The notes beneath the pieces were generated by a model. It saw only the letters and a list, made by a program, of their open reading frames with translations. It was not told the origin of the DNA and made no database searches. DNA of 64,000 bases from Flavobacterium sp. N502540 (lineage in GTDB: Bacteria; Bacteroidota; Bacteroidia; Flavobacteriales; Flavobacteriaceae), in NCBI RefSeq assembly GCF_025947365.1, contig NZ_CP110012.1, positions 3,162,001 to 3,226,000 of the forward strand, in the 5' to 3' direction. This document shows positions 21,896-39,057 of this stretch, one piece after another; the stretch's first letter is position 1, and each line of letters starts with the position of its first letter. Position numbers and translations under genes: made by a program.

Positions 21896-23344
21896 ATGTT
21901 AGTAAAAGTTTACGGAAGTGCCGTTTTTGGAGTAGAAGCAACAACGATTACGATCGAAGTTCATATGGATAAAGGAATTGGTTATCATTTAGTGGGATTG
22001 CCGGATAATGCCATAAAGGAAAGCAGTTATCGAATTGCCGCCGCACTTAAGAACAATGGATTAATTTTTCCGGGTAAGAAAATAACAATTAATATGGCAC
22101 CGGCTGACTTACGAAAGGAGGGTTCCGCATACGATTTAACTTTGGCGATGGGAATTTTGGTGGCTTCAGATCAGATAAAAGCACCGGAGATTGAAAAATA
22201 TATTATCATGGGAGAGCTTTCTTTAGACGGCAGTTTACAACCGATTCGGGGAGCATTACCGATCGCAGTCAAAGCAAAGGAGGAAGGTTATAAAGGTTTC
22301 TTCCTGCCTATTCAGAATGTGAAAGAAGCTGCAATAGTGACTGGATTAGACACTTACGGAGTTCAGAATCTTCAGGATGTTATTGATTTTTTTAAGGGGA
22401 AAGGAACTCTTGAGCCTACAACTATTGATACGAAAGCTGAATTTTATAAAAGCTTAGATTTTCCGGAATTTGACTTTTCAGATGTCCGCGGACAGGAAAG
22501 TATAAAACGTTGTATGGAAATTGCGGCTGCGGGAGGTCATAACATCATTTTAATTGGTCCGCCCGGAGCGGGGAAAACGATGTTGGCTAAACGTGTTCCG
22601 AGTATTTTACCGCCAATGACTTTGCGTGAAGCTCTTGAAACGACTAAAATTCACAGTGTTGCCGGAAAGTTGAAAGAAGTTGGATTAATGAACCAGCGAC
22701 CTTTTAGAAGCCCTCATCATACCATTTCTAATGTTGCCTTGGTTGGAGGAGGAAGTTATCCTCAGCCCGGAGAAATTTCGATGGCTCACAATGGTGTTTT
22801 GTTTTTAGACGAATTACCGGAGTTCAAGCGCGATGTTCTTGAAGTGATGCGCCAGCCGCTGGAAGATCGGGAAGTTACTATTTCAAGGGCTAAATTTACA
22901 GTAACTTACCCTTCCTCGTTTATGCTTGTGGCGAGTATGAATCCCAGCCCGAGTGGTTTTTTTAACGATCCTGCTATGCCTAATACATCTTCGCCACATG
23001 AGATGCAGCGCTATTTGAGCAAAATATCAGGACCTTTACTGGATCGGATTGACATTCATATCGAAGTCACACCAGTTCCTTTTGAAAAATTGGCCGATGA
23101 TCGAAAAGCCGAGAGTAGTGTTGAAATCCGCAAACGGGTTACCGCTGCACGAGAAATTCAGACCAGACGTTTCGAAACAATTGAAAATGTACATTACAAT
23201 GCACAAATGAGCAGTAAACTTATTCGGGAGTTTTGTATTCTTGACGATCCGTCAAAAGAATTGCTTAAAACGGCTATGGAACGATTGAATCTGTCTGCGA
23301 GAGCCTACGACAGAATCCTGAATGACAAACTTTTTTATATATAG
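21896..23344 (+). CDS. comM: ComM/YifB Mg-chelatase-like AAA ATPase, C-terminus replaced by element insertion
   Basis: 482 residues. In naturally transformable bacteria ComM is a hexameric branch-migration helicase. Seen: the N-terminal Lon-like domain (AVFGVEATTITIEVHMDKG), Walker A GPPGAGKT near residue 221, FRSPHHTISNVALVGGG, Walker B GVLFLDELPEF, DRIDIHIEV, and the start of the C-terminal domain (LNLSARAYDRIL). After codon 475 the host sequence stops and 7 residues (NDKLFYI) are read from the inserted element. The lost part lies at 38949-39057; joining at the shared AA gives 511 residues, the usual family length. Whether the truncated protein folds or works is unknown. Confidence 0.95.
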   Translation: MLVKVYGSAVFGVEATTITIEVHMDKGIGYHLVGLPDNAIKESSYRIAAALKNNGLIFPGKKITINMAPADLRKEGSAYDLTLAMGILVASDQIKAPEIEKYIIMGELSLDGSLQPIRGALPIAVKAKEEGYKGFFLPIQNVKEAAIVTGLDTYGVQNLQDVIDFFKGKGTLEPTTIDTKAEFYKSLDFPEFDFSDVRGQESIKRCMEIAAAGGHNIILIGPPGAGKTMLAKRVPSILPPMTLREALETTKIHSVAGKLKEVGLMNQRPFRSPHHTISNVALVGGGSYPQPGEISMAHNGVLFLDELPEFKRDVLEVMRQPLEDREVTISRAKFTVTYPSSFMLVASMNPSPSGFFNDPAMPNTSSPHEMQRYLSKISGPLLDRIDIHIEVTPVPFEKLADDRKAESSVEIRKRVTAAREIQTRRFETIENVHYNAQMSSKLIREFCILDDPSKELLKTAMERLNLSARAYDRILNDKLFYI

Positions 23345-23347
23345 TTC
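23298..23347 (+). other. attL: left junction of the comM element
   Basis: Host comM sequence runs up to CAGAATCCTG plus the core AA at 23321-23322. Element sequence follows from TGACAAAC. The right arm of attP is 23323-23347 and ends in ATATAGTTC, the inverse of GAACTATAT at the other end. Confidence 0.85.
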
Positions 23348-23480
23348 ATTTTTTGGTTTTAAATTATTGTAAGTTAGTTTTTTATGTTCTAAATATTGTT
23401 GTTTGATTGTTACAATTATTTATGTTAATTAGTGATATTTTTTCTTTATGCGTGATTTTTCTTAAATTCACGTAATTGTA

Positions 23481-23493
23481 CCTAAACTTTAGG
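23481..23493. promoter_or_regulatory. 13-bp palindrome at the transposase start
   Basis: CCTAAACTTTAGG is a perfect palindrome about a central C, ending 2 bases before the ATG at 23496. A protein bound here would cover the ribosome-binding region, which suggests autoregulation. Inference only. Confidence 0.4.
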
Positions 23494-23495
23494 AA

Positions 23496-24626
23496 ATGGA
23501 GAAGCATAAAATTTACGACCGTGATTTTAAAGTGAACGCAGTCAAATTAGCACTTAAAACAAATCGTTTCCAAGCAGCAAAAGAACTTGGCGTAGGAACT
23601 ACAAATATCTACAGATGGCAAGCCGAATTTCAAAAATATGGTGAAGCAGATAGCTTTTGCAAAGGCCATTTTAGAAACCCCGAGCAAAAAAGGTTTGTGA
23701 TACTTAAAATTACACTTACAAAAAGGCTACAAAAAGTAGAACGTCAAGTTGAAATTTTTAAGAGCGCAAGCCACTATATCCTGCAAGGAAAACCAATGAT
23801 TTTTTATTTTATCGAAAACAATTTAGATAAATATTCAATTTGTAGTATGTGTGAAGTTTTAGGTATAAGAGAAACGACTTATTATCGATGGAGAGATAAA
23901 ATAGTTTCTCCAAGAAAGCGTGAAACAATCTTCTTAGAAGAAGAAATAACGTCTATATTTTACGAATATAAAGCGAGATATGGTAATATCAAAATTTCAG
24001 CAGAATTGAGAAGCCGAGGCATTATATTATCACCTCCTTCGGTAACTCGTTACATGAATAGACTAGGTCTTGTCAGTAAGCTTAGCAGTAGACATAAATT
24101 GAAATCTGGTTCGCATTTTGTTCCCCATAATCCTTGTATTTTTCCTAATATTCTTAATCGTCAGTTTAAAGCTGACAAACCTTCACAGATTTGGGTATCG
24201 GGTATAACAAACTTAGAAACAGAGAAAGGTCTTTTATCACTAACAATTATTATGGATTTATTTGACAATAAAATTATTGGATGGAATTTGAGTACAGGTG
24301 CGACAATAATGGAAACTTCAATGCCAGCTTGGGAAATGGCTATCCTAAATCGTAAACCTAAGAAAGGATTAATATTTCATTCTGATAGATCACCTCAATA
24401 CGCTAATAAGATGTTTACTCGTAAATTGAACTCATATAAACATATTAAACGAAGTATGAGCAGGAATGGGAATCATTTAGATAATGTTGTGCCCAAAAGA
24501 TTTTTTATCGCCCTTAAATCTGAACTAGCTTCTTTAAATGAACTTTCTATTAAAAAAGAAATTGAAGAAAAAATACCTGAATATCTTGAACAAACATCAA
24601 ACGTTTTTAAGCACATATTAATATAA
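23496..24626 (+). CDS. IS3-like transposase paralogue with degraded DDE site
   Basis: 376 residues: an N-terminal helix-turn-helix of the transposase-8 type (MEKHKIYDRDFKVNAVKLAL), a middle linker, an HTH_21-like segment (YEYKARYGNIKISAELRSRGI) and an rve integrase-like domain. The catalytic set is broken: the first aspartate is Gly236 (WVSGIT, against WVSDIT in its neighbour) and the glutamate is Lys334 (VVPKRFF against AVSESFF). Asp297 (HSDRSPQYA) remains. The C-terminal end also diverges and is shorter. The frame is nevertheless open throughout. It is followed after 10 bases by an intact paralogue. It may be a decaying copy or a catalytically dead regulator/DNA-binding partner. Confidence 0.8.
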   Translation: MEKHKIYDRDFKVNAVKLALKTNRFQAAKELGVGTTNIYRWQAEFQKYGEADSFCKGHFRNPEQKRFVILKITLTKRLQKVERQVEIFKSASHYILQGKPMIFYFIENNLDKYSICSMCEVLGIRETTYYRWRDKIVSPRKRETIFLEEEITSIFYEYKARYGNIKISAELRSRGIILSPPSVTRYMNRLGLVSKLSSRHKLKSGSHFVPHNPCIFPNILNRQFKADKPSQIWVSGITNLETEKGLLSLTIIMDLFDNKIIGWNLSTGATIMETSMPAWEMAILNRKPKKGLIFHSDRSPQYANKMFTRKLNSYKHIKRSMSRNGNHLDNVVPKRFFIALKSELASLNELSIKKEIEEKIPEYLEQTSNVFKHILI

Positions 24627-24636
24627 ACTTACTGTT

Positions 24637-25797
24637 ATGAAAAATTACGATCGTACGTTTAAAATGAATGCAGTCAAATTAAGCTATAAGAGAGGTAAAG
24701 GACAAATTGCGAGTATTGAAAGGGAGTTAGGAATAACTGCTAGTTGTTTATATCGATGGCGACAAGACTTCGAAAAATTTGGAGCAGGAAGTTTTTGCGG
24801 AACAGGCTACTTAAAATTAACTCTCGATCAAAGTACAATTACTAATCTTGAAAAGAAAGTAAAAGATTCAGAACTTACACTTGAAATTTTGAAAAGAGGA
24901 AGTAAACATGTTGCACTGGGAAAAATAATGACTAAAGATTTTATTGAGGATAACAAAAATAAATTTTCAATTTTAAAAATGTGCAGTGCATTAGGAGTTT
25001 CAAGAACCACATATTATAGAAGAAAAAAACAAGAACTTTCAAATACTGAAATTCGAATAAATATTTTGAAAGAGGAAATTACATCTATATTTTATGAATT
25101 TAAGCAAATATGTGGCTGTAGAAAAATTGCTAAAGAACTTGAAAAGAGAGGGTTTAAAATAACAGACTCACATGTCGCATCTTATATGAAAGTTCTGGGG
25201 CTTTATCGAAAAGCCAAAAGAAAATACAAAGCAACAACAGATTCACTTCATAATCACTATGTGTTTCCAAATGTTTTAAATAGAGAGTTTAAAGTTACTG
25301 ACCCTTCCCAAGTTTGGGTTTCGGACATTACATACATACAGACTATGAGAGGCTTTCTATACCTCACTATAATTATGGATTTATTTGATAGAAAAATCAT
25401 AGGATGGAGCTTAAGTGACACAATGAGTACCAAAGCAACAACTCTACCAGCTTGGGAAATGGCGGTTAACAATAGAAAAATTACCAAAGAGTTAATTTTC
25501 CATTCAGATAGAGGTACTCAATATGCTAATAAAATTTTCACTAAATCTTTAGACTCATACAAATATGTTAGAAGAAGTATGAGTCGTAAGCAAAATCACA
25601 ATGATAATGCTGTTTCTGAAAGCTTTTTTAGCATATTTAAACGAGAATTAATTCACAGGGATAAACTTTTATCAAGAAAACAGTTGAGAATAGAAGTTTA
25701 TGAATACATTGAAAACTGGTATAATAAGAAAAGAAGACATGGATTTTTAGGCTATAAGACAATTGAGGAATTTGATAGAATTAATAAACTAAGCTAA
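24637..25797 (+). CDS. IS3-like transposase with intact DDE triad
   Basis: 386 residues with the same layout as its neighbour: HTH (NAVKLSYKRGKGQIASIERELGI-type), a coiled linker (TITNLEKKVKDSELTLEILKRG), HTH_21, and an rve domain with D230 in WVSDITYI, D291 in HSDRGTQYAN and E328 in AVSESFFSIFKREL. The ending (ENWYNKKRRHGFLGYKTIEEF) is typical of the family. IS3-family transposases are normally made from two frames by frameshifting; here one continuous frame encodes everything. I find no clear terminal inverted repeats of an insertion sequence around the pair. Confidence 0.88.
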   Translation: MKNYDRTFKMNAVKLSYKRGKGQIASIERELGITASCLYRWRQDFEKFGAGSFCGTGYLKLTLDQSTITNLEKKVKDSELTLEILKRGSKHVALGKIMTKDFIEDNKNKFSILKMCSALGVSRTTYYRRKKQELSNTEIRINILKEEITSIFYEFKQICGCRKIAKELEKRGFKITDSHVASYMKVLGLYRKAKRKYKATTDSLHNHYVFPNVLNREFKVTDPSQVWVSDITYIQTMRGFLYLTIIMDLFDRKIIGWSLSDTMSTKATTLPAWEMAVNNRKITKELIFHSDRGTQYANKIFTKSLDSYKYVRRSMSRKQNHNDNAVSESFFSIFKRELIHRDKLLSRKQLRIEVYEYIENWYNKKRRHGFLGYKTIEEFDRINKLS

Positions 25798-26317
25798 ATT
25801 TAACTAGAGCTTATGATTGAGCTGTTTTTCATGTAATCTCTATTTGCTTAAGTCTTAATTGAAAATAATAAACTTTTAAATATATAGTTCATTTTTTTTG
25901 AAATTAGCCTTCTAAAAATAGATTAAGTTAATGACTTGTTTTTATGTATTTAAAAGTTTATTAATTCATCAGAAGTGGTCAATAGCTAAAGGCTTAAGCA
26001 TCGAGAATCAATTAGAAAAGGTATGTAAGCAATCGATATATTAAAAAGGGGATTATATAAGTTGCTATTAATAGATACTAAAGATTAATTTTGACAATTC
26101 TTAGACTATTCATTGATTCAATCCGATTAAATAATTTTAATACATCCTTAATTTATAATAACTAATTAATTAAACTGAGTGTTTTAATGTTTTAAAAACT
26201 CGATTTTTGTTTAAAAAATAATCAGAATAGCTCTGAAAAAATAGGTTTTTAGGGTCTTGTTGATTAATGCTCAGATTGTACATCACAATTAAGATTTTTT
26301 AAGGACACATAATGAAT
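25798..26317. other. Gene-free stretch left of the iterons
   Basis: About 520 A+T-rich bases with no convincing gene. It contains the second attP-arm copy (25866-25890). Confidence 0.45.
25864..25890 (+). other. Second attP-arm copy (internal att-like site)
   Basis: AA at 25864-25865 followed by a 25-base arm that matches the attL arm 23323-23347 at 21 of 25 positions, with the next 7 bases also matching. Both end in ATATAGTTC at the same distance from AA. The left side does not carry the GAACTATAT half. Confidence 0.55.
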
Positions 26318-26360
26318 AATATTATAGATATAAATATTATAGATATAAATATTATAGAAG
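26318..26360. repeat. Iteron-like 15-bp tandem repeats
   Basis: AATATTATAGATATA occurs twice exactly (26318-26332, 26333-26347) and a third time in part (26348-26357). The array ends 27 bases before the ATG at 26388. Confidence 0.8.
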
Positions 26361-26387
26361 TAATAAATAGTAATAAAAAAAAATCGC

Positions 26388-27716
26388 ATGTTTGATATTA
26401 ATGAAGAATTTGATTATTTTAATGAAAAAGATTGTAATTACAAAGAATTTTTGAATTCTCAAAAATTATTAACAGATGTTAATACTCTTACAGTACCAAA
26501 ACGTTCAGTTAGATTGTTAAATGCAAAAAAAAATGAAAAAAGATTACTGGAAATTAGTCCTGATAAGCTTTTGGCTGTAGAATATTGTTTGGTTTTCTTG
26601 TCAAATCTCGTAAATGTACAATTCAATGGCAATAATGATAAGTGGAAGTCTTTGTCTAGTAGGGTTTTAAGAGAGCAGATTCCAGGATCTGACGGAACAT
26701 ATAAAAGGGTTATAGAATTTTTACTTGAGCCAATATTTTCATTTAATTCTTTAATAGAAGTTAAACTAAATGACAGGGAGACCGAAACTTACGAAGTAAG
26801 GACAAGGTCAAAACAGTATAGACTCTCAAGCTTGCTTTTAAATAATAAAGTTGAAATATATAAAATATCAAATTCCTATCATAAGAAAAGGAGATTAGAT
26901 ATCTATCGCATAAAAATTATAGAATCGAAGAATAATTTGATTGTAACAAATCTATTGGCTATATATCCCAAATTAGCCCTTCCTGTAGAAAATGAAATAT
27001 TAGCAGAAGCTAGAAGATTAGTAAAAATCAAATATAGGAATGGTAAAGGCAAAAAACTGACTATTTTAAATGGCAGAAAAAAAACCGATCTTGTGGATCA
27101 GAAGCGATTTTATTTAGAAGATAGTTTAAAATTATTTAAATATTTAACAGAGAATGGATTTAAATATCCCTCAATATCTGGAGAAAGATCTGGAGGTAGG
27201 GTGTATGATTCAATAAATATGATGCCTAAATTCATTCGAAACCTAATTAAAATAGACAATGAGAAAACTATTGATATTGATTTCAGATGTTTACATCCAA
27301 ATTTAGCTGTAAAATTATACGGAGGTACTACAAAATATATTACTCATGAGTTGATAAAGGATAAGTTAGAAATGGAGCTTCATATTGTAAAAGAAGAACA
27401 TTTAAGTTTTTTTAATAAGAAGGCTCAACAGATGAGAATGAGTCTATTGTACCCTTATTATGAAACAAATGAACCCACGATGTTAAAAAAAATTATATCT
27501 GACAAGAATAAAAATAATTACAAAATTACCAGTCAAAAAATGTTTGATTTAGAAGTCAAAATAATGACGGAGTGTATTAGGAGGTTAAATAACATCGGAA
27601 TTAATGTTTTATATGTCTTTGATGCTCTTTTGGTTAAATGTAGTAATCAAAGAGCTGTCGAAAATATAATGAATCAAGTCGTTTCCGAAATGGGAATTTA
27701 TACTAATGTTGGTTAA
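26388..27716 (+). CDS. Mobile-element protein with polymerase-palm-like motifs
   Basis: 442 residues, basic, not fully recognised. The C-terminal half has a pattern known from plasmid- and element-borne proteins: GGRVYDSINMMP (about 268), then an acidic motif IDIDFRCLHPNLAVKLYGG (about 295), a helix KKAQQMRMSLLYPYYE, and near the end VLYVFDALLVK (about 407). The order, an acidic D in a motif-A-like position and FDA in a motif-C-like position, resembles a polymerase palm, but this is inference. The 15-bp iteron-like repeats directly upstream make a replication role plausible. Alone in its transcript as far as can be seen. Confidence 0.5.
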   Translation: MFDINEEFDYFNEKDCNYKEFLNSQKLLTDVNTLTVPKRSVRLLNAKKNEKRLLEISPDKLLAVEYCLVFLSNLVNVQFNGNNDKWKSLSSRVLREQIPGSDGTYKRVIEFLLEPIFSFNSLIEVKLNDRETETYEVRTRSKQYRLSSLLLNNKVEIYKISNSYHKKRRLDIYRIKIIESKNNLIVTNLLAIYPKLALPVENEILAEARRLVKIKYRNGKGKKLTILNGRKKTDLVDQKRFYLEDSLKLFKYLTENGFKYPSISGERSGGRVYDSINMMPKFIRNLIKIDNEKTIDIDFRCLHPNLAVKLYGGTTKYITHELIKDKLEMELHIVKEEHLSFFNKKAQQMRMSLLYPYYETNEPTMLKKIISDKNKNNYKITSQKMFDLEVKIMTECIRRLNNIGINVLYVFDALLVKCSNQRAVENIMNQVVSEMGIYTNVG

Positions 27717-28062
27717 AAAAATAGTCTTTGTTTTATAAGTGATTGGTATTAAGTGTTTTGGGTTTATTTTGCTTTTTACAGAAATAGTGGTTAGTAAAGG
27801 TTTGCCAAGCAATGACCTATTTATTGTTTGATCTAGAGTGTGTTGTAAGATTTTAGATTTTACCTTTTTTTCGGCTCTATTTTGTATTTCTTAAGAAAAA
27901 AGCTGGAACGACTTTTTTTGTTTCGCTTTTTATTGGTAAAAATAGTACAAAAATATTTTTTTTGTAAGTATTATTTGTAATATATTTGAAGGAATCAGTT
28001 TGTTTGTTACCCGATTAACAAGTGACAATAGGAATACCACTTAAGCAACATCTAATTTAATT
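27717..28062. other. Leader and promoter region of the rhs gene
   Basis: About 345 bases without a gene. TTTG at 27961-27964 and TATATTTG at 27981-27988, 16 bases apart, form a good promoter for the Rhs gene with a 75-base leader. Confidence 0.6.
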
Positions 28063-31000
28063 ATGTTATTAACCGATAACCATTTAACCATAGTCGTGGG
28101 TATTGACATCCACTTTACTACTTTACCACCATTCAATCCTTTTCATCCTTATATTGGTATTGTTATTGATCCTGCGGATTACATTCCTTTTTTAGGTACT
28201 TCGGTACATGTAAATGGTTTTAAACGTGGGAATTCTGATACAGGAGGTATTATTATTCCATTACAGCATATTCCACTTTTTACGCCACCTTGGCTAATGA
28301 TGCCCATTATTGGGCACGAGAGTATGAACTTTTTTGCTTCACAAACTGTATTTTCAGATGGTACGCGAATGAGTCCCAAAGGGCATATGCTAATGACTTG
28401 TAATGATATTGGAATTCCGCTCTCGATGTCTCTAGGGAAAACCAAAGTGGGTAAAAAAATGTTACCGTTTGCTCCAACGCTTTTTGCTCCAACCTCATTT
28501 TCATTGCCTATTCCTACCGGGAAACCCGTAATGGTAGGTGGACCTTATCCGCCCGATTGGGGAGGAATGATTACCGGACTGGTTGCTAGTATTGGCTTTA
28601 GCACGCTATTGAAGAAAACGAGAGGTCTTATTAAAAAATTTAATACAAGTGGAAAAAGTCCAAAAGGTCTTAAAAGAATCTTGTGCCGGTTTGGCTTTGA
28701 ACCTATAAACTTAATTAATGGTGCTGTAATTTATGAAGGGAGCGATTTTGATATTGCTAGTCCAATTTCTTTAAACTGGCAACGTAGTTGGTACTCCGAT
28801 TCTGATTATGTAGGCTGGTTGGGTCATGGTGTACATTGTGTATATGACAGAGCGGTAGAATTATACCCTGAAGACGATGCAGTAGGACTTCGTATGGAGG
28901 ATGGAAGATTGGTTGCTTTTCCTGCTTTAATACCGGAAGAAGAATTTTATCTCCGTGAAGAAAAAACAACCCTGAAAAAAACTCAGGACGGTTATCAGGC
29001 TTACGATCATACAAAGAAACTGTTTTATGATTTCACCCTTTTTAACGGCAAGAAATACCAGCTCACTCAAATTACCAATTCTGCTGGGCTTTCTGTTATT
29101 TTTGAATTTAAAGGATATATCCTGAACAGGATCATCGATTCGGCAGGCAGAGCCATCAAAGTAAGCACTAAAGACGGATTCATTCAAAAGCTAGAACTTG
29201 TTGGACCTGAACAAGAGGAACTTTTAGTTGCGTACGAGTACGATCAGGAAGGCAATATAAGCTCCATTATTGATGCACTTCAAAAACCAACAACCATTGA
29301 ATATGAAAATCATTTGATGGTCAAAAAAACAGATCGTAACGGTCAGACTTTTTATTGGGAGTATGATACTCAAAACAAATGTATTCACACGTGGGGTGAT
29401 GGTGGTTGGCAGGAAGGCTGGATGGATTACCATACGGAAGAAGGTTATAACTTAGTTACTGACGCCAACGGAGCTGTAACCACTTATTATTACGAGCCAA
29501 GTCAGTTGGTCACGCAGGTAAAAGACCCAATGGGCAACAGCACCTTTTATGATTATACCGAGTTTATGGAACTCTACCGGGAGATTGATCCCGAAGGACG
29601 TATACTAGGCTATAATTATGATGAAAGAGGAAACAAAACCAGTACAGTTTACCCCGATGGTACAGAAGAAATCATGATTTATGATGAGGAAAATCGTCCA
29701 TCAATTGCCATAGATCCCGAAGGCAATAAAACCGTTTACCTGTACAAAGAAGATAAAGAGAATCAGCTAAAAACAATTATAGCTCCTGATAAAACCACTA
29801 CCCATTTTAGTTATCACAATAATGGATTATTGGCAACAGTGGCCAAAAACAACAACAAACTCGAACTGATTTATGACGACCAATTCAACCTTATAGAGTG
29901 GCGTGAGAATAATGAAAAGTTAAAGTCATGGGAGTATGACCATCGTGGGCGCGTACAGGCGATCTATACCCCAATGCAAATGGCGGATTACTTTAGTTAC
30001 GATGCACTGGACAGAGTAAGACAGATTGTAGAAAAAGACAGCAATGTTATACAGTTTACCTACAACAATTATGATGAAGTAATAGGTTTAAAAGACAATA
30101 AGAACAGTATTAAGTTCAGTTATACCCCGATGGGAAGTCTTGCTACACGAGAGCAAAACGGAGTAAAAGTGCGTTTTGATTACGACAAGATGGAGCAGTT
30201 GCAAGGCATCAAAAACGAAGACAATGAAGTCTACTATTTTGACAGAAATAAAGCAGGACATATAATAAAAGAAGTTGCTTTTGACGGTATGGTGAAAAAG
30301 TACCAGCGTAATTTGGCAGGTGAAGTGACCAGAATAGATCATGGCAACGGAAAATTTACAGAATACGAACAAGATGCACTGGGACGCATTACCAGAGCGG
30401 ATTATCACGACGGTACTTGGGAAACGTACGGTTACAACAAAAATGGACAGCTCATTGAAGCTACTAACCAAAACGTTAGCATTTATTTTGAACGTGATGC
30501 AGTAGGACGTATCATACAAGAAACTCAAAAACAACAGCTCGATGCCACCCAAAACGGCATAACACTCTTATCAACTTATAATGCTTTAGGACAACGTACC
30601 AACATTACTTCCAGCCTTGGAGCCGATATCAATACTCATTACAACCAAAAGGGACAGCTGGAGCGAATAGAAGCCCAAAGTAAGGAACTTAAAGAACAGC
30701 ATCAAAAGTGGGAAACCACCCTGAAACGAGATGAATTAGGACGTGAAATAGAGCGCTTTACCACAGGAGGACTACATGTTAAAACCGGTTACAACAACAG
30801 CGGGAAACAAAAAGAGCAGGAAGTATTTGCCAATGGCAAACGTACAGGTTCGCGTTTTTACAACTGGGACACCAACCAGCAATTGCGCAGTGCGGTGAAC
30901 CAAATGACTTCAAGTATTACTTACTTTGATTATGATGACTTTGGCAATCTGGCCAAGAGTTATAATGGCAATGAAGAACTATATAAAACTCCCGATGCAG

Positions 31001-32262: not shown

Positions 32263-32275
32263 AATATTGGAAATT

Positions 32276-32656
32276 ATGGATTATTTAGATAAGATTTTTT
32301 TATGGTTAGGTGTGACAAGTAAAAGTCAAGAGCAATTTGATGAATATTTTGAATTAGATTATTCAGAAGATATTGACAATAGAAAGATATGCGGTTTTTG
32401 TAAAGACATAGGTAAAAAATGGTATGATGAAGATTTCATAGGCTACCTAAGATTTAATGAAGAATTAACGGTTTTGGCAATTTTGAAAGAAGTGCCAATA
32501 AGTGAAAATGATAAAAATAAAGTACTGGATAATTGTAAAGATTTAGGTATTGAATTTGTTAATTCAGTTTACTGGTATTCTGGAGAGATAGAAGTTCCTT
32601 CAAAGGATAAAAAATACAATGAACTATTTTATATTGGAGAATATAGTTTAGATTAA
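32276..32656 (+). CDS. Probable immunity protein (Imm22-like) for the Rhs toxin
   Basis: 126 residues from ATG 32276 (MDYLDKIFLWLG), 13 bases after the toxin stop. It is acidic (FDEYFELDYSEDIDN, KKWYDEDFIGYLRF), as usual for immunity proteins. The start FLWLG...EQFDEYFELDYSE and the YDEDF motif recall the Imm22 family of polymorphic-toxin immunity proteins; that name is tentative. Position and charge make the immunity role likely. Confidence 0.65.
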   Translation: MDYLDKIFLWLGVTSKSQEQFDEYFELDYSEDIDNRKICGFCKDIGKKWYDEDFIGYLRFNEELTVLAILKEVPISENDKNKVLDNCKDLGIEFVNSVYWYSGEIEVPSKDKKYNELFYIGEYSLD

Positions 32657-33199
32657 CTTATTGTAAGAAAATTTCTTTTTGTCATACTTAAGATTAGGAA
32701 AAGAATGTTTTTCTAGATGAACAGATAGAAGTTTTCCGGTTAGCGTTGTTATCTTGCTTATGAATGTAATGAAACTTGACAAAGAATAGAGAAGCTACCT
32801 CCATGTTGAGGTAGTTTTTTGTTTGTAGATGTTATGACTTTTTACATGAAATATTTTAAAAAAAAATATTGTGAAGATGCAAAGTTAAAAGGTTTTAATT
32901 TTATAGCGCAAGGGTATTCTATGTTATGCAGATTTGTAAATTAAATTGCAAAGAGTATTTCTTGTTTCTTCGTCTAAATTTTGAATGTCTTTCATGTATT
33001 CAATTATTTTTCTCAAAAGTTACATTGTGCCCTTCCCCATTGAGCGTGTCTTTTAATAATAAATAAAGAAAGAGATGTGTCCTTTTTAGAGTATACCTTA
33101 GCTTTAATACTATTTCAATTAAAATCTAAACAGTTTTATTGGTTTTGCAGTGTATTAAAAATAACCACTCTAAAATTAATACATTAAAATGAAAAGTAT
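32657..33199. other. Gene-free stretch after the immunity gene
   Basis: About 540 bases. It contains a terminator (32795-32820); otherwise I see no gene, repeat or structured RNA. Confidence 0.4.
32795..32820 (+). terminator. Terminator of the rhs-immunity unit
   Basis: Stem CTACCTC (32795-32801) with GAGGTAG (32808-32814), followed by TTTTTT. Confidence 0.75.
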
Positions 33200-33207
33200 T
33201 ATCTTTG
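33200..33207 (+). promoter_or_regulatory. -7 box of the resolvase gene
   Basis: TATCTTTG matches TAnnTTTG and lies 21 bases before ATG 33229. This favours 33229 over the earlier in-frame codon at 33205. Confidence 0.5.
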
Positions 33208-33228
33208 TTTCAACAAAAGCAAAGAGCT

Positions 33229-33819
33229 ATGAAAACTGCAAAATACATTAGAGTTAGTACGACAGAACAAAACATTGATAGACAATCGACAACTAATCAT
33301 AAAATGTACATTGACAAATGCAGTGGTTCAATTCCATTCAACGAACGCCCAAACGCGATAAAATTATTGAACGATATAGCAAGCAAAAAAATTGATACGT
33401 TAATTGTGCATTCAATTGATAGATTAGGAAGAAATGCTTTTGATATCCAAACAACATTAAATACATTAAGCAATCTTAACATTAATGTATACGTAGAGAA
33501 TATTGGTTTATATTCTATGATTGACAACAAACCCAATTCTATCTTCAAAATGATAACTGATGTTTTAAGTAATGTTGCAGAAATGGAAAGAGCATCATTG
33601 TTGGAAAGACAAAAAGAAGGTATCATGATTGCGAAAGCAAAAGGAACATACAAAGGAAGACAGTTAAATACAACTGAAACACCTCAGCAATTTTTGTCAA
33701 AGTATAACCAATCTCACGTAGAATTGATTAAAGACAAAAACTATTCAATAAGAAAACTGGCAACAATTACCAATTTATCAAATAATACTATTGTCAAGAT
33801 TAGAAAAATATTGACATAG
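33229..33819 (+). CDS. Small serine recombinase (resolvase/invertase family)
   Basis: 196 residues. The catalytic N-terminal domain has the nucleophile serine in KYIRVSTTEQNIDRQ, DTLIVHSIDRLGRNAFD, and the E-helix with AEMERASLLERQKEGI. GTYKGR leads to a C-terminal helix-turn-helix (YSIRKLATITNLSNNTIVKIRKI). Size and layout match resolvases and invertases, not integrases. It is the second serine recombinase of the element. It may resolve multimers or invert DNA; no obvious res site or invertible segment was identified. Confidence 0.88.
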   Translation: MKTAKYIRVSTTEQNIDRQSTTNHKMYIDKCSGSIPFNERPNAIKLLNDIASKKIDTLIVHSIDRLGRNAFDIQTTLNTLSNLNINVYVENIGLYSMIDNKPNSIFKMITDVLSNVAEMERASLLERQKEGIMIAKAKGTYKGRQLNTTETPQQFLSKYNQSHVELIKDKNYSIRKLATITNLSNNTIVKIRKILT

Positions 33820-33877
33820 CATATTATAGAGTAAAAAAGAACTAACTAATTCACAAAATTATTAACATGAATATCTT

Positions 33878-33885
33878 TATATTTG
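33878..33885 (+). promoter_or_regulatory. -7 box of the AbiJ-like gene
   Basis: TATATTTG matches TAnnTTTG, 33 bases before the ATG at 33919. Confidence 0.45.
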
Positions 33886-33918
33886 TTTCCTAGTAAACTA
33901 AATATAAAAGAAATAGAA

Positions 33919-34779
33919 ATGAAATTTTCTCAACGAATTGGCAAAGTGGCAGTTTCAAAACAAATGCAGATTGATTCTTTAGATGATGAGCTAAAAAATG
34001 GTCTATAGAATGGTATAAAATTATTTTTAATTGACACATTATCCAAAAACAATAGTTATGGAGTATCAAAATTTGACAATTTCTGTTCGCTACTTTGGCA
34101 CAATCATTTTAAATTAGCAATTGACAAAATCCCTAGTTCCGATTACCAATCTGAGCAATATATCAGAGATAGTTTTTACAAAGGAGAGTGGTATGAATCA
34201 TATGATTTATTAGAGTTCTTAGCAAATTTAAAATCAAACTCATTTTATATTGAAAATGAAGAATTCATGTTCTTTTGTAATGAAATTTTAGAAAGGGAAT
34301 TTTCTGGTTATCGATTCATTGATAACCAAATTTCACCAATAACTAATAGAAACGAAATTGAAGAAATCGAAAATGCAATAAGTCAATCAGGCGAATTTAC
34401 AGCTTTAAGAGGTGTAAATATTCATTTAAAATCTGCTTTAGAAAAACTTTCTGACAAAAAATCTCCAGATTATCGAAATTCTATAAAAGAATCTATTTCT
34501 GCAATTGAATCAGTAGCAAAAGCAATTTCTGAAAATCCTAAAGATAGCTTAGGAGGAGCACTTGATAAAATTAAAGGAAAAATTAAACTTCATGCTTCAC
34601 TAGAAAGAGGTTTTAAACAATTATATGGATATACCAGTGATAGCGATGGAATACGTCATGCCTTAATGGACGACCATAACTGTGATTTTGAGGATGCAAA
34701 GTATATGCTTGTTTCAAGTAGCTCATTCATAAATTATCTAATCGTTAAAGCTAACAAAGCAGGAGTTTCTTTAGAATAA
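33919..34779 (+). pseudogene. AbiJ_NTD4-type abortive infection protein, interrupted by one nonsense codon
   Basis: The reading frame from ATG 33919 (MKFSQRIGKVAVSKQMQIDS) to 34779 is continuous except for TAG at 34006-34008 (codon 30). Related proteins read DELRNSLWN at this point, so a TGG-to-TAG change (one base) explains it. Restored, it has about 286 residues. The N-terminus is the AbiJ_NTD4-type domain. The C-terminal part (IESVAKAISENPKDSLGGALDKI, GIRHALMDDHNCDFEDAKYMLV) is helical and HEPN-like, with a possible R-x6-H. Such genes are linked to phage defence. Reinitiation at ATG 34267 would give a 170-residue C-terminal protein. A sequencing error is possible. Confidence 0.75.
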
Positions 34780-34840
34780 AACAGAATAATCTTAGAAAAA
34801 TATTAAGTCATCGTAAACGTAAAAGTTTTTATTTAGAGAA

Positions 34841-35359
34841 ATGATAGAGAAAAAACTAAAAGAAATCTTATCCTTAAACGGTATATCAATTTTAATTGGA
34901 ATAGTTGGAGGTATTTTAGGCATTATATCGATTTTCATTGATTGGAACACTCAACTAAGTATAAAATGGGTTGCAGGTTTATGTATCATATTTTCATTTT
35001 TTTTGATTATATCTTTAAAACTAACTTTTGACATTTACATGTTACATAAATTAAGAACTACTAGAAATAATAAAGTCATACAATTTTCAAGTACTGATTC
35101 GTTATTACTAGTAGAGAACAATAACAACCTTGAATATTCCCAGAGTGTTTCCATTTTTTTCATAAAAAACAATTTTCAATTATTGTTAGCGAGTGGATAT
35201 GTACAAAATATACAAGATAAATTTGTTCAAGTAAAAATTATAAATTTTGATGATGGCTTTATCAATTCCTATAGAGATGATTATGAAAGAATTCTTAATA
35301 ATGACAATAATGCCTTGATATCAATATTAATTAAAAATTACATAAGTTATAATGGATAA
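34841..35359 (+). CDS. Membrane protein of unknown function, first of a two-gene unit
   Basis: 172 residues. Two N-terminal membrane spans (ISILIGIVGGILGIISIFI and WVAGLCIIFSFFLIISLKL) are followed by about 100 soluble, strand-rich residues (NKVIQFSSTDSLLLVENNN, FVQVKIINFDDGFINSY). I do not recognise a family. It overlaps the next gene by 8 bases, so the two are translationally coupled and probably act together, with this protein holding its partner at the membrane. Confidence 0.6.
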   Translation: MIEKKLKEILSLNGISILIGIVGGILGIISIFIDWNTQLSIKWVAGLCIIFSFFLIISLKLTFDIYMLHKLRTTRNNKVIQFSSTDSLLLVENNNNLEYSQSVSIFFIKNNFQLLLASGYVQNIQDKFVQVKIINFDDGFINSYRDDYERILNNDNNALISILIKNYISYNG

Positions 35360-35708
35360 AGAAATAACAGATATAGTAGTAGCTAGTAAAATAGATGATT
35401 ATACAATTGTCATTAATAAAGGTCTTAAGGATTTTATTAATAGCAATATGAGATTTTTAGTTTATCAAGAGGGAAATGAAATTATTGACCCATCAACAAA
35501 TAATAGCTTGGGCAAGCTTGAAATTCCTAAAGGTTTTTTTAAAGTTCTGCATATTCAAGACAGCATGACAATACTAGTTTCAGAATTAAAAAAGGAAAAA
35601 AGCATGTTTCAAGTATTGAATAATGTATACAAAGAGATAGATATAGAACAAGATTTACTAAGCAAAATAACACTTGGAGATAAAGTGAAAATAGTCAACA
35701 AATTGTAA
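35352..35708 (+). CDS. Small beta-rich protein (FlgT C-terminal-like), second of the unit
   Basis: 118 residues, soluble. The core (INSNMRFLVYQEGNEIIDP, NSLGKLEIPKGFFKVLHIQ, SMTILVSEL, GDKVKIVNKL) resembles small beta-barrel domains of the FlgT C-terminal type (a pattern of F.VY..G..I.DP.T...LG......G..KV). That match is by eye and tentative. Coupled to the membrane protein upstream. Confidence 0.55.
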   Translation: MDKEITDIVVASKIDDYTIVINKGLKDFINSNMRFLVYQEGNEIIDPSTNNSLGKLEIPKGFFKVLHIQDSMTILVSELKKEKSMFQVLNNVYKEIDIEQDLLSKITLGDKVKIVNKL

Positions 35709-35750
35709 TTTCGCTTTGATTTTTAAAGAATGCTTCTAAAAACGAATTTC

Positions 35751-36101
35751 ATGGAAATACAAGAAATATATTTAACTATAGTAACAACCTTTGTCGCTAT
35801 TTTTGGATTATTATTTACATGGCTCCAGTTTATTCTTGCCAAGAAAAAGCGCAAAGATGACCTTTTTAATTTAAGATATGAATTTTACAAAGATATATCT
35901 AATATATGGACTTCAACATGTAATCCAGAAATGCCTCCATTGGATATTGTAGACTTAATACCATTAGCTGAAAAAGGAAATTTCTTATTTGGAAAAGATA
36001 TTTCCTCATACATAATTTCTTTAGAGAATAAGACTGCAAACCGTCCTTTCTTTCCAGATGAAGATTTCACTAAACCTTTCGTTAAATATTTAAAACTATA
36101 A
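35751..36101 (+). CDS. Single-span membrane protein of unknown function
   Basis: 116 residues from ATG 35751 (MEIQEIYLTIVTTFVAIFGLLFTWLQF); an in-frame ATG lies 21 bases upstream. One N-terminal span and a basic stop-transfer (AKKKRKDD) precede a cytosolic part (RYEFYKDISNIW ... AEKGNFLFGKDISSYIISLENK). The order span - basic - FYK - LFGKDI occurs in unnamed small membrane proteins of accessory regions. Function unknown. Confidence 0.5.
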   Translation: MEIQEIYLTIVTTFVAIFGLLFTWLQFILAKKKRKDDLFNLRYEFYKDISNIWTSTCNPEMPPLDIVDLIPLAEKGNFLFGKDISSYIISLENKTANRPFFPDEDFTKPFVKYLKL

Positions 36102-36289
36102 TTAATTTGGTACAATTTAAGAGCATTTATATGTCTTTACCGTCCGAAAATATTAATGTTCTAATACAACTTAGCTAAGGTAATTTTACCACTTTAATAG
36201 TAGAAAAGAGTGACGAAAAGAAGTGACTAAAACGGGTAAGATCGCATCAAAACGGAATTATGCTTTTAAAAGTTTTAGTACTAAACATA

Positions 36290-36361
36290 GTATAAACAAT
36301 TGGCTTGTCTAGTATTAGGATTCATAATCCTAAGGTTATGAGTTCAATACCCTGACTACAA
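36290..36361 (+). pseudogene. Degenerate tRNA-Met-like sequence
   Basis: The anticodon arm is perfect: stem TAGGA, loop TTCATAA (anticodon CAT), stem TCCTA, at 36316-36332. A T-loop consensus GTTCAATA-type stretch (AGTTCAATAC) follows at the right distance, and a D-arm-like TTGGCTTGTCTAG precedes it. The T stem and acceptor stem do not pair and there is no CCA context, so it is probably not functional. Confidence 0.45.
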
Positions 36362-36365
36362 ATGA

Positions 36366-36395
36366 AAAGCCACTCTATAAAGAGTGGCTTTATTT
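36366..36395. terminator. Hairpin downstream of the 36422 gene
   Basis: An 11-bp perfect stem, AAAGCCACTCT / AGAGTGGCTTT, with 4-base loop ATAA. It may end minus-strand transcription from the gene that stops at 36422, and plus-strand transcription too. Confidence 0.65.
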
Positions 36396-36421
36396 GCGAT
36401 TGAGGTATCTTCTTAATATTA

Positions 36422-36880
36422 CTACTTCGATTGGTCATTAAAGAGTTTTTTAGTCTGTTTTTGAGTTAAATACATTCCTAATGAAACTACATTGTTTTTT
36501 GATATTGCAATATATAGAGACTTAGTTCCCATAGATTTTTTAAAGTTTGCATGAACTGCTGTTCCTTCTTTAGTTTGAAAAATAAATCCTTCATTATCTT
36601 TATATTCATCTTTATTAAAGCGATTTTTAACCTCGCTGTAAAAAGAATCTATCTCTTCTGGGGTCATTATAAATTTAGCTTGAACATTTAAAATTTGATA
36701 TTTAGAATCTTGAAATATAAATGAAGTATAATTATCATACCAGTTAGCTTCTATCAGTGTAGCTCCCATTATTGATGCTTTTGTAATCAATTTTGGTTCT
36801 AATGTTTTATTGTCAATAATTTGGGCGTCAACTAAAGATGTGCATAATAAGGTAACTAATAGTAATGATAATTTTTTCAT
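36422..36880 (-). CDS. Exported protein of unknown function in the element
   Basis: 152 residues with a signal peptide (MKKLSLLLVTLLCTSLVDA, cleavage before QIIDNK). The mature part alternates strands and helices (EEIDSFYSEVKNRFNKDEY, GTAVHANFKKSMGTKSLYIAIS). No family recognised. It faces away from the XRE regulator gene, so the two share an upstream region. Confidence 0.5.
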   Translation of the reverse strand: MKKLSLLLVTLLCTSLVDAQIIDNKTLEPKLITKASIMGATLIEANWYDNYTSFIFQDSKYQILNVQAKFIMTPEEIDSFYSEVKNRFNKDEYKDNEGFIFQTKEGTAVHANFKKSMGTKSLYIAISKNNVVSLGMYLTQKQTKKLFNDQSK

Positions 36881-36950
36881 TTTTTTTGATTTGGTTAATA
36901 TTTAGTGATTTAAATTTAAGTATTTAAATGTCTTACATCATAGTTTATAT

Positions 36951-36978
36951 TTTGAGTTGACATATGTGTTTACTTTTG
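36951..36978 (+). promoter_or_regulatory. Promoter of the XRE regulator gene
   Basis: TTTG (36951-36954) and TACTTTTG (36971-36978) are 16 bases apart, the same spacing as at the rhs gene. This argues for translation from ATG 37009, not 36964. Confidence 0.6.
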
Positions 36979-37008
36979 AAACAAATATATGAAGTATTAT
37001 TGACAATC

Positions 37009-37269
37009 ATGTCAACAGAGTCAATAAAAAAAATCAATTTTTTCGTTAAGCAATTCGGAATCAATTTGAAGGAAATCAGACAATCAAAAAATATGACCCA
37101 GCTCGATCTAGCAACTGCGATGAATGATATGAGTTCTGAGTCGTTTATTGATAAGACAACAATTTCTAGAATTGAAAATGGGCGAACAAATATAACCTTA
37201 ACTACTTCTATAAAGCTTTCTTTAGCACTTGAAGTAGATTTAAAGGTGCTTTTTGATTTTAAATTATAA
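37009..37269 (+). CDS. XRE-family helix-turn-helix regulator
   Basis: 86 residues starting MSTESIKKINFF. The helix-turn-helix is complete: GINLKEIRQSKNMTQLDLATAM ... IDKTTISRIENGRTNITL, then SIKLSLALEVDLKVLFDF. It is a stand-alone DNA-binding protein. Its place next to the convergent integrase gene suggests control of excision or cargo, but this is inference. Confidence 0.8.
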   Translation: MSTESIKKINFFVKQFGINLKEIRQSKNMTQLDLATAMNDMSSESFIDKTTISRIENGRTNITLTTSIKLSLALEVDLKVLFDFKL

Positions 37270-37352
37270 TATTAAAAGTAGATGTTAAATATTTAAATAG
37301 TTCTAATTAAAAACATTTTCAATAGGTTCTTTAATATTGATTAATTCTGAAG

Positions 37353-37375
37353 CACTGTAAGAAAAGCTTACAGTG
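37353..37375. other. Hairpin between XRE and integrase genes
   Basis: A 9-bp stem CACTGTAAG / CTTACAGTG with a 5-base loop, directly after the integrase stop. There is no T run on either strand, so terminator function is doubtful. Confidence 0.4.
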
Positions 37376-38884
37376 TTAATTGGGGGAATTATTAGACAGA
37401 TAGTCATCAACCATCATTTCTAAATCTTCATCGCTAATAGGATGTCGTGACGGAAGTTCTTCATTAAGATATCTCTCATTTAATGGTTTTCTTGCTTCCC
37501 AGCCGAGTTTGGTAGGATTGGGTTTGTTGAGGTCGTATTCTTGCCATCCAAATATGTTTATTAGAACTCGCTTTTTATCTATAATGACGTAATTAATAAT
37601 TTCTTTAATTTCATTTTTAAATAATTCAAGATCTTCACTGAAATATTGAATATCTATTTTTAGTGCATTTTCAGCTGTTTTAATAACATCTTTGAGTTTG
37701 TTGTTAGTTCTGTTGTATTCTTCTATTTTGGTGGCTATTTCGGCTTTAATTTCATTGTATTCTTCATTTGTGAATTCCGAATCAAGATATAGATCTCTTA
37801 CTTTTTTTTGTCTGTTTTTAAGTTTTTCAACTTCCTTACTATTTAAATCAATTTTAGCTTTAAAAGATAATATTTGTAGTTTGAAGTTTTCACGAATTTG
37901 TTCCTCTTTTGTTTTCTGCGCATGCTTTATTACTGCTTTACGTATCATTCTAAATAACCAAGGTCTATTAATTGAATTTTTACATTTTTCATCTTTACAG
38001 ATAAAACAATCAATTCCTCCTTGTACGATTACTTTTTGATGCATTACATTTCCACAGACACAAGTGATTTTTCCATGAATGATATTAGTATGTACATATG
38101 TTCTGCTTCCAAATTTGCTTCTAGTATCGATAGAATCATTTGCTTTTTGCCATAATTCTCCTGAAACAATTGCCGGAACATTGAGATCCAGATTATTATA
38201 TTTTCTTTCTCCTTTATGGAAGGTATTTCTTATTATGCCACTGAGTGTTCCAATAGCTATTTTTCGCCCAAATTCAGATTCAATCAATGCGGATATATTT
38301 CGCATACCAAGGTCTTTTGACGCAAGTTCGAATATCTTTCTAATCATTGGCGCTTCTGTCTCATCAATTGCAGGGGTACCATCTTCTCCTTTTTTATATC
38401 CAATAATTTTCCCACCAAAAGCTAAATTTTTTTTTGCTCTTGACATTTTTCCCGAACTTATTCTTGAACCAAGTAATCGTCCTTCATTAGATGACATTAC
38501 ACCCAACATTGAAATAATCATTTCCGAAGCAAAAGATCTTTTACCGTAGTCGTCAAGAGTTGATACATTTAAGTCTTTAATGTGAATGCTAATCCCTTTT
38601 TCTATATACTCCTCAACTATATTTTGGATATCATTATTTTTTCGCCCAAGCCTAGAAATTTCTAAAACTAAAATATTTCTAACATCTTCGTTTAGCTCGA
38701 GGTATTTTTTCATTTGATTAAATCCAATTCTCTCGTCAGATTTTGTTTTTGTACCACTTATTTTGTCTTCAAATATTTTTACCAGAGTTAAGCTTTTTTT
38801 AGAAGCAAAACTTTCAATATCATCATACTGTCTTTCTAGGGATTGTTCTTGAGTACTCACTCTGAGATATGCAACTGCTTTCAT
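37376..38884 (-). CDS. Large serine recombinase (site-specific integrase of the comM element)
   Basis: 502 residues. The catalytic domain has nucleophile Ser10 in AYLRVSTQEQSLERQ, then LVLEISRLGRKNND. The recombinase domain follows (FGGKIIGYKKGEDGTPAID, MIRKIFELAS, RNISALIESEFGRKIAIGTLSGIIRN). A zinc ribbon has Cys pairs in CVCGN and CFICKDEKC. A long coiled coil (about 325-410) is as expected for synapsis control. Its start is 62 bases from the attR core, as usual for an integrase next to its attP. It should catalyse attP x attB recombination with comM as attB. Confidence 0.92.
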   Translation of the reverse strand: MKAVAYLRVSTQEQSLERQYDDIESFASKKSLTLVKIFEDKISGTKTKSDERIGFNQMKKYLELNEDVRNILVLEISRLGRKNNDIQNIVEEYIEKGISIHIKDLNVSTLDDYGKRSFASEMIISMLGVMSSNEGRLLGSRISSGKMSRAKKNLAFGGKIIGYKKGEDGTPAIDETEAPMIRKIFELASKDLGMRNISALIESEFGRKIAIGTLSGIIRNTFHKGERKYNNLDLNVPAIVSGELWQKANDSIDTRSKFGSRTYVHTNIIHGKITCVCGNVMHQKVIVQGGIDCFICKDEKCKNSINRPWLFRMIRKAVIKHAQKTKEEQIRENFKLQILSFKAKIDLNSKEVEKLKNRQKKVRDLYLDSEFTNEEYNEIKAEIATKIEEYNRTNNKLKDVIKTAENALKIDIQYFSEDLELFKNEIKEIINYVIIDKKRVLINIFGWQEYDLNKPNPTKLGWEARKPLNERYLNEELPSRHPISDEDLEMMVDDYLSNNSPN

Positions 38885-38921
38885 TTACACGAGTTTTTCT
38901 GTAAAAGTATAAAAGAATATT

Positions 38922-38973
38922 GAACTATATGTTGTAATTAATTATTAAAGTTGCCCGAACAATCAGTGATTTG
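38922..38973 (+). other. attR: right junction of the comM element
   Basis: The left attP arm 38922-38946 starts GAACTATAT, then core AA 38947-38948, then comM sequence from AGTTGCCCGAAC. The arm is exactly 25 nt, the same as the arm at attL. Confidence 0.85.
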
Positions 38974-39057
38974 GATCATTCAGAAAATATTATTTCGTCT
39001 CATATTGCCGAAGCCATTCAGTACAGAAGTTTGGATCGCGATGGCTGGTTGGGGTAG
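38949..39057 (+). pseudogene. comM: Displaced 3' end of comM (last 35 codons)
   Basis: Read from 38950 it gives [14 protein letters not shown] and [16 protein letters not shown], then a stop at 39055-39057. The motif [11 protein letters not shown] is the conserved C-terminus of YifB/ComM proteins. With the AA core and the A at 38949, it completes codon 476 of the left part in frame, giving 511 residues. It has no start codon and cannot be expressed as a normal protein. Confidence 0.93.

Follow-up and report, generated by a model that had tools for sequence, protein, structure and literature searches.

According to the consulted parts of the papers cited here, genes of the ComM type are an established target of large serine recombinases (LSRs). 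In the survey of Durrant et al. 2022 (PMC10083194), which covers 20 host phyla, Mg chelatase/ATP-dependent protease homologues are the targets of 12.4% of the predicted site-specific LSRs, and DNA competence genes are enriched among LSR targets; it is our analysis that equates this annotation with ComM. Similarly, LSRs of sr1WO phages are inserted in the magnesium chelatase gene of Wolbachia (PMC9203015). ComM acts as a branch-migration helicase whose C-terminal domain is of the Mg-chelatase kind (PMC11612176), and transformation of A. baumannii falls when ComM is lost (PMC11472951). In several Gammaproteobacteria mobile elements disrupt comM, which has been read as a conflict with transformation (PMC4774983, PMC11472951). 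Here we analyse a stretch of 64,000 nucleotides from Flavobacterium sp. N502540 (contig NZ_CP110012.1, positions 3,162,001 to 3,226,000; hereafter the window, whose numbering we use), in which comM is split by an element that encodes an LSR.

A sequence-only reading of the window had suggested that a comM-specific serine-integrase element in such a host, with toxin and defence cargo and no conjugation genes, was new. Novelty of LSR targeting of comM as such is not borne out, because it has already been published for ComM-type genes (PMC10083194, PMC9203015). What we did not find described is a set of 17 comM-adjacent LSRs that occupy four sites of the gene within one genus and group largely by site. 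No paper joining comM, a serine recombinase and Bacteroidetes was found in the open-licence literature, supplementary tables aside, and Bacteroidota cases may stand in the supplementary tables of PMC10083194. Within the same bounds, the pattern of mobile elements disabling ComM is extended here to Bacteroidota without an earlier report. The elements at the site found in the window (site D) most likely persist by integrating at comM and disabling ComM.

A precise interruption of comM after codon 475

The comM gene of the 5.41-Mb single-contig chromosome (genome G000, Flavobacterium group) is split after codon 475 by an element of 15,626 bp. A whole-genome search finds just two pieces of the gene and no second copy. 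The features at the two junctions are as follows.

21896..23344, + strand: comM 5' part, with 475 native codons followed by 7 codons and a stop from the attP half-site of the element
23321..23354, + strand: attL, the core AA (23321-23322) and the attP right half (outer arm ATATAGTTCA)
25864..25897, + strand: second copy of the attP right half-site, 88% identical, inside the element, 2.5 kb in, without a left half
37376..38884, - strand: LSR (integrase), 502 aa, with Resolvase and Recombinase domains and four conserved Cys (zinc ribbon)
38921..38948, + strand: attR, the attP left half (outer arm TGAACTATAT) and the core AA (38947-38948)
38947..39057, + strand: comM 3' part, codons 476-511 (38947-39054) and the stop (39055-39057), separated from the start codon

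The truncated ComM ends, as the sequence-only reading had it, on seven foreign residues (NDKLFYI) followed by a stop. The remainder of the protein does lie 15.6 kb away, although it comprises 36 codons rather than the 35 first counted, because the junction codon is split. Both junctions share the dinucleotide AA, and joining the flanks there reproduced the 511-residue, in-frame ComM with its stop that had been predicted, while the LSR gene was measured to start 62 bases from the right AA, again as reported. Intact comM at the predicted empty site was looked for in related genomes, and in 28 full-length loci from relatives the gene runs uninterrupted through the site. ComM is matched in 291 of 299 genomes of the same genus; among the matches listed all are full length except those in G000 and G091 (residues 1-476) and G086 (6-511), two of these three being split genes. 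The same kind of integrase was also searched for beside comM fragments elsewhere, and five relatives carry the comM 3' end (ComM residue 463-475 onward) directly beside the LSR start. Their LSRs are 80% (L031, F. ustbae), 77% (L032, Flavobacteriaceae PS02337) and 60% (L033, Arenibacter troitsensis) identical to that of the window, and 30-31% identical in L002 (G202) and L003 (G091), at the same comM site.

Given that these are the sole comM pieces in the genome, that relatives have the gene uninterrupted and that five further LSR loci adjoin a comM 3' end, the interruption is more than chance. An assembly artefact or chimera, which could also place two gene pieces apart, has a negligible probability: nothing was found in its support, the genome is a single contig, and the same junction occurs in five loci of other genomes. 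A site-specific mobile element is thus inserted at one exact point of comM, and the AA junctions together with the uninterrupted relatives support the earlier proposal of a serine-integrase element at a precise attB with a clean empty site.

The recombinase has the expected domains, with the Resolvase catalytic domain (PF00239) at residues 3-153 and the Recombinase domain (PF07508) scoring 31.8 bits against a cut-off of 21.1. The YxRxS motif with its nucleophilic Ser (Y6, R8, S10) is present in 61 of 62 aligned family members, the remaining one being gapped, and the zinc-ribbon Cys 275/277/296/301 are kept in all 62. Among PHROGs the protein matches the integrase family phrog_95. Relatives at E <= 1e-20 numbered 80 among 7991 scored candidates, and they belong to Flavobacteriaceae wherever the organism is named; at this threshold none was found in the plasmid and phage collections and none was confirmed in viral contigs.

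When attP is rebuilt from the two halves, it forms an inverted repeat about AA in the window element and in all four related elements treated in the same way (5/5). The symmetric positions, out of 30, number 16 in the window, 23 in G716, 20 in G717, 21 in G091 and 22 in G202, counts matched by 120 of 5000 shuffles for the window and by none for the other four. By count the window attP is therefore the weakest, but its 10-base outer arm, the longest run, was matched in just 2 of 5000 shuffles. At sites A-C of comM (see below) the attP arms are also inverted, as judged by eye only. The attB is the comM segment encoding SARAYDRIL/KVARTI. As in G000, the truncated ComM of G716 and G717 gains seven codons (NNKLIYV and NNTLLHI, respectively) and a stop from the attP half; the foreign tails of G091 and G202 are longer. 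These attP/attB pairs are ready predictions for serine-integrase tools. The half-site copy inside the window element is possibly the scar of a tandem insertion followed by deletion; the element of L031 has no second internal att copy.

Four target sites in comM across the genus

A total of 17 LSRs, one of them truncated, lie against a comM fragment in 16 of the 299 genus genomes, at four sites.

Site A, around codon 147: G106, G166, G188
Site B, around codon 219, immediately ahead of Walker A: G001 (LSR cut by the contig end), G038, G047, G267
Site C, around codon 279: G102, G150, G154, G202, G210, G249, G265
Site D, codon 475: G000, G091, G202

The comM of G202 is in three pieces, with one element at site C and another at site D. 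The 17 are a hand count, which leaves out G037 and G056, where the fetched stretches hold no LSR at the junctions; comM pieces ending at contig ends (e.g. G055, G131, G227) are left unclassified. A census of the Recombinase domain PF07508 gave 242 matches in 142 of the 299 genomes, and 13 of the 17 are among the matches listed, those of G000, G001, G038 and G267 not being among them.

A FastTree phylogeny largely separates the LSRs by site. Site B has a support of 1.000, site C stands apart from the rest at 0.994, and the two site-D clades, at 1.000 each, join at 0.999; site A reaches only 0.41 with G166 included. Some genes enter this tree twice, through two loci, and the truncated LSRs of G001 and of site C in G202 are left out. 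Different recombinase groups thus converge on one gene at four positions, in part with elements that carry phage genes (see below), which the sequence-only reading had missed. Nested within the site A and site C groups are four LSRs (L167, L168, L169, L170) that do not adjoin comM, for which a change of target site is possible. The idea that the attB sites are specially conserved DNA was rejected, their conservation percentiles within comM being 0.68, 0.76, 0.12 and 0.47.

Several comM genes of the genus show other rearrangements. In G150 the halves are separated by 722 kb and are on opposite strands (C1:2693765 and 3416675), which suggests a chromosomal inversion inside the element. The comM of G037 (L124) is interrupted near codon 200, flanked by an apparent 8-bp repeat, GTCAAAGG, with no LSR in the stretch; this is probably a transposon rather than an integrase element. 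Orphan comM 3' fragments lie 1-2 kb past an intact comM in G032 (C1:127433-127669) and G139 (C1:2180515-2180586; L092, L093) and are possibly relics of earlier, repaired insertions.

Class, core and cargo of the elements

The elements at sites A-C, which measure 19-51 kb where both ends lie on one contig with the LSR, contain phage packaging or structural genes in three of the four sampled. Some of the 68 open reading frames (ORFs) of these four match terminase, portal, head-protease and tail families, and checks of single proteins place a portal and a tail protein in G188, a terminase in G267, and a terminase and a head protease in G265; the two proteins checked in G210 match no such phage family.

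The site-D elements are smaller (9.1-15.6 kb in the five measured; the left end of that in L032 lies outside the fetched stretch). Family scans covered 64 ORFs of six elements, the window included (of 65 listed ORFs, one is not in the alignment), and the results that follow concern the 25 of 37 Pfam and 25 of 39 PHROG families listed. No terminase, portal or capsid family is among them. Nor do the Pfam families include a relaxase or a type IV secretion system, which, for the families listed, places these elements outside the integrative conjugative and mobilizable classes and agrees with the absence of conjugation genes noted in the sequence-only reading. A Tn7-type transposition family is likewise missing from those listed for the six elements and for the window ORFs scanned. 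One of the 64 ORFs, which the pooled table does not specify, matches phrog_19979, 'virion structural protein', at E 2.4e-105, and this counts against calling the site-D elements wholly free of phage genes.

The six site-D elements all encode an LSR and a roughly 200-aa small serine recombinase (6/6); five also have an XRE regulator, which is missing in L109. The window, L088 and L089 share a small secreted-like protein, and L031 and L032 share one of another type. The small recombinase is matched 76 times in 60 of the 299 genomes. It, or a similar one, lies inside or adjoins 14 of the 16 checkable comM elements of the genus (G001 left out of the check; G047 and G210 without it), and by hand count at least 23 of the 76 have a listed LSR no more than 40 kb away on their contig, compared with one or two expected by chance on our own rough estimate. 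In plasmids it has just two matches, at 36.5%, and in viral contigs one, at 33%. Inverted repeats of the phase-variation kind were sought around it, and none among the five longest pairs of each element is common to the five elements compared.

Around this common core the cargo differs between elements. ShosT and ShosA occur in both L032 and L089, the two pairs being 75% and 79% identical, L088 carries an AbiLi/AbiLii-type system (AAA_21 and RloB), and L109 a member of the candidate defence family PDC-M68B; the single cargo protein checked in L031 gave no defence match. Because the LSRs of the two ShosTA-bearing elements are just about 31% identical, the shared pair suggests that cargo may move between LSR clades. 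In L109 (Arenibacter troitsensis) the last ~20 ComM codons and flanking DNA are present three times with a spacing of ~169 bp (14348-14808).

The other genes of the window element are these.

23496..24626, + strand: IS3-type transposase paralogue 1, with two of the three acidic residues expected for catalysis replaced
24637..25797, + strand: IS3-type transposase paralogue 2, catalytic motif intact
26388..27716, + strand: 442-aa protein; weak to moderate resemblance of its AlphaFold2 model to a short family A DNA polymerase of the phage type
28063..32262, + strand: Rhs-repeat protein, 1399 aa, C-terminus read as toxin-like, no toxin domain matched
32267..32656, + strand: Imm22-type (PF14112) immunity gene, adjoining the Rhs gene
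33205..33819, + strand: 204-aa small serine recombinase, the companion of the LSR, represented in each of the six site-D elements compared
34267..34779, + strand: match to the PADLOC candidate defence family PDC-S32, the C-terminal ~160 of ~285 aa, 5'-truncated
36422..36880, - strand: 152-aa protein with a start that we read as signal-like, relatives (36-38%) in L088 and L089
36964..37269, + strand: XRE-type HTH regulator, 101 aa, represented in five of six site-D elements including the window

Cargo of the toxin and defence type, as claimed for the window element, is present in the form of the toxin-like Rhs protein with its Imm22 gene and the truncated PDC-S32 match. The 442-aa protein has 126 homologues, and its model (pLDDT 89) is best matched by phage Pol I-like models (TM ~0.6), with weak matches to family A polymerases of the PDB (TM 0.3-0.4); a divergent short family A polymerase is the identity this model points to, although it is not proven. 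Contigs of 90,729 and 157,995 bases are listed both for two of its homologues and for two LSR relatives, a hint that the two genes may travel together. The IS3 pair recurs elsewhere in the chromosome (G000:C1:3109619-3111847 and 3892323-3894550) and in many genomes of the genus. Among nine pairs the last catalytic Glu is replaced in paralogue 1 of eight (the ninth was not read) and present in paralogue 2 of all nine, as if the altered paralogue were retained for some purpose. That the pair is a passenger mobilised by the LSR was rejected, as seven other printed copies have no att half-site in their flanks by eye.

The small size of the site-D elements, their LSR and XRE regulator, the phage-like polymerase predicted in the window and the phrog_19979 match could together indicate phage satellites, replicated and packaged with phage help, and elements with phage genes do enter the same gene at other sites. 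We regard this as unlikely given the families listed, which hold no terminase, portal or capsid. Moreover, the nine window ORFs (of 13) that were compared with PHROGs gave recombination, HTH-regulator and unknown families only and no structural one, the polymerase-like protein has no homologue in the five other site-D elements compared, and the LSR has no match at E <= 1e-20 in the phage collection and none confirmed in viral contigs. A bolder proposal, in our estimate also improbable as a whole, is that the site-D elements are a distinct class of non-phage, non-conjugative 'comM cassettes' of Flavobacteriaceae, in which the LSR, the small recombinase and the XRE regulator would carry exchangeable defence and toxin cargo into and out of a single comM codon and swap it across LSR clades, so that the cell could toggle or lose heterologous recombination.

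Probable consequences for ComM and comparison with known systems

The mechanism we propose begins with a circular form of the cassette, whose LSR would join its attP to the chromosomal attB at the core AA. The truncated ComM would lack the end of the C-terminal Mg-chelatase domain and would probably be non-functional, while excision, probably aided by a directionality factor encoded in the element, would restore comM exactly. With ComM disabled, less heterologous DNA would be integrated by transformation, so that, following the published intragenomic-conflict model, the cassette would be safe from replacement by element-free DNA, and its defence and toxin cargo may in turn pay the host. We hold the mobility mechanism and the disruption of ComM with considerable confidence, and give even chances to the cassette gaining from it. 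A loss of ComM function in the host is likely, because codons 476-511, part of the Mg-chelatase domain, are removed. ComEC is present in the host.

In 18 of 19 split comM genes the reading frames are open throughout the aligned pieces. Measured against the nearest intact gene, the ratio of nonsynonymous to synonymous differences (pN/pS) of the split genes lies at 0.03-0.19 in 18 of 19, and intact genes measured against their nearest intact relative give 0.03-0.24 in 26 of 28; in these comparisons G717 has a distant comparator only, G056 lacks ~60 codons and G716 is compared from codon 233 on. As a clock for the age of the insertions pN/pS is uninformative, since synonymous sites are near saturation between species. 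The open frames fit young insertions and a reversible state alike. They could thus accord with a regulatory switch of the kind raised in the sequence-only reading, in which controlled excision and re-integration turn ComM off and on. The precise in-frame restoration predicted for comM, the constraint within the range of intact genes and the XRE regulator in five of six site-D elements would suit such a switch, and yet the same frames and constraint are expected if the insertions are merely younger than the species. Furthermore, serine integrases usually require a directionality factor, and none was identified in the element. The split comM of G037 contains a stop and that of G056 lacks ~60 codons between its pieces, with no LSR at either junction. 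A switch therefore seems to us very improbable, and we favour the conflict model (PMC4774983, PMC11472951), which needs no regulation to be invoked.

Several points weigh against the conflict model and the mobility on which it builds. Natural transformation of the host is an assumption, and comM may be targeted merely because its loss is tolerated; the four attB sites do not lie in unusually conserved comM DNA. The recombination activity of the LSR is predicted from its sequence; searches for it in plasmids, phages and viral contigs brought up neither an excised nor a circular form. Within the 299 genus genomes the other full-length LSRs found of this type are just 30-31% identical, in a search that scored at most five candidates per genome. 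Among 397 genomes of the family the sole other match at E <= 1e-40 is a 34% relative in another genus (L108, G423), which has no comM in its fetched flank, and the 24 remaining loci with LSR relatives (27-31% identity, mostly metagenome-assembled genomes of Firmicutes) have no comM match.

Some of these points would suit another account, in which comM is a convenient, dispensable landing place and the element gains nothing from disabling it. In five genomes (G149, G158, G239, G270, G279) comM has internal stops or frame breaks in contiguous pieces with no large insert, the sites lie outside extra-conserved DNA, and the comM-adjacent LSRs make up the smaller part of those found in the genus. 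We nevertheless find this account somewhat doubtful, as different LSR groups have entered one gene at four sites, and in other bacteria this gene class is over-represented among LSR targets (PMC10083194). The intragenomic-conflict idea becomes testable in a tractable genus by comparing transformation with and without the cassette.

The staphylococcal cassette chromosome (SCC) is a non-conjugative cassette with a large serine recombinase, one chromosomal target gene and swappable cargo. The site-D elements resemble it in being non-conjugative cassettes moved by an LSR at one gene with exchangeable cargo. They differ in their target and in having one LSR and a small serine recombinase in place of the Ccr set, and the window LSR scores far below the NCBIfam cut-offs that mark SCC (CcrA, 50.4 bits with a cut-off of 700; CcrC, 45 with a cut-off of 900). 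With sr1WO of Wolbachia phage WO they share an LSR in a magnesium chelatase gene with parts of the gene on both sides (PMC9203015), but the sr1WO elements are prophages, whereas no terminase or portal is among the families listed for the site-D cassettes; the elements at sites A-C are more WO-like. The AbaR/AbGRI and other comM insertions of Acinetobacter and Pasteurellaceae likewise split comM, some with defence genes, and there comM loss accompanies low transformation (PMC11472951, PMC4774983); they employ Tn7-like or other integrases, in contrast to the LSRs of the comM elements here. The elements of PMC10083194 come closest, with an LSR, a precise attB in a ComM-type gene, many diverse LSRs converging and competence genes enriched. 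The part consulted of that survey gives no positions within the gene and mentions no case from Bacteroidota, whereas the comM elements described here occupy four sites in one genus and are accompanied by a small companion recombinase.

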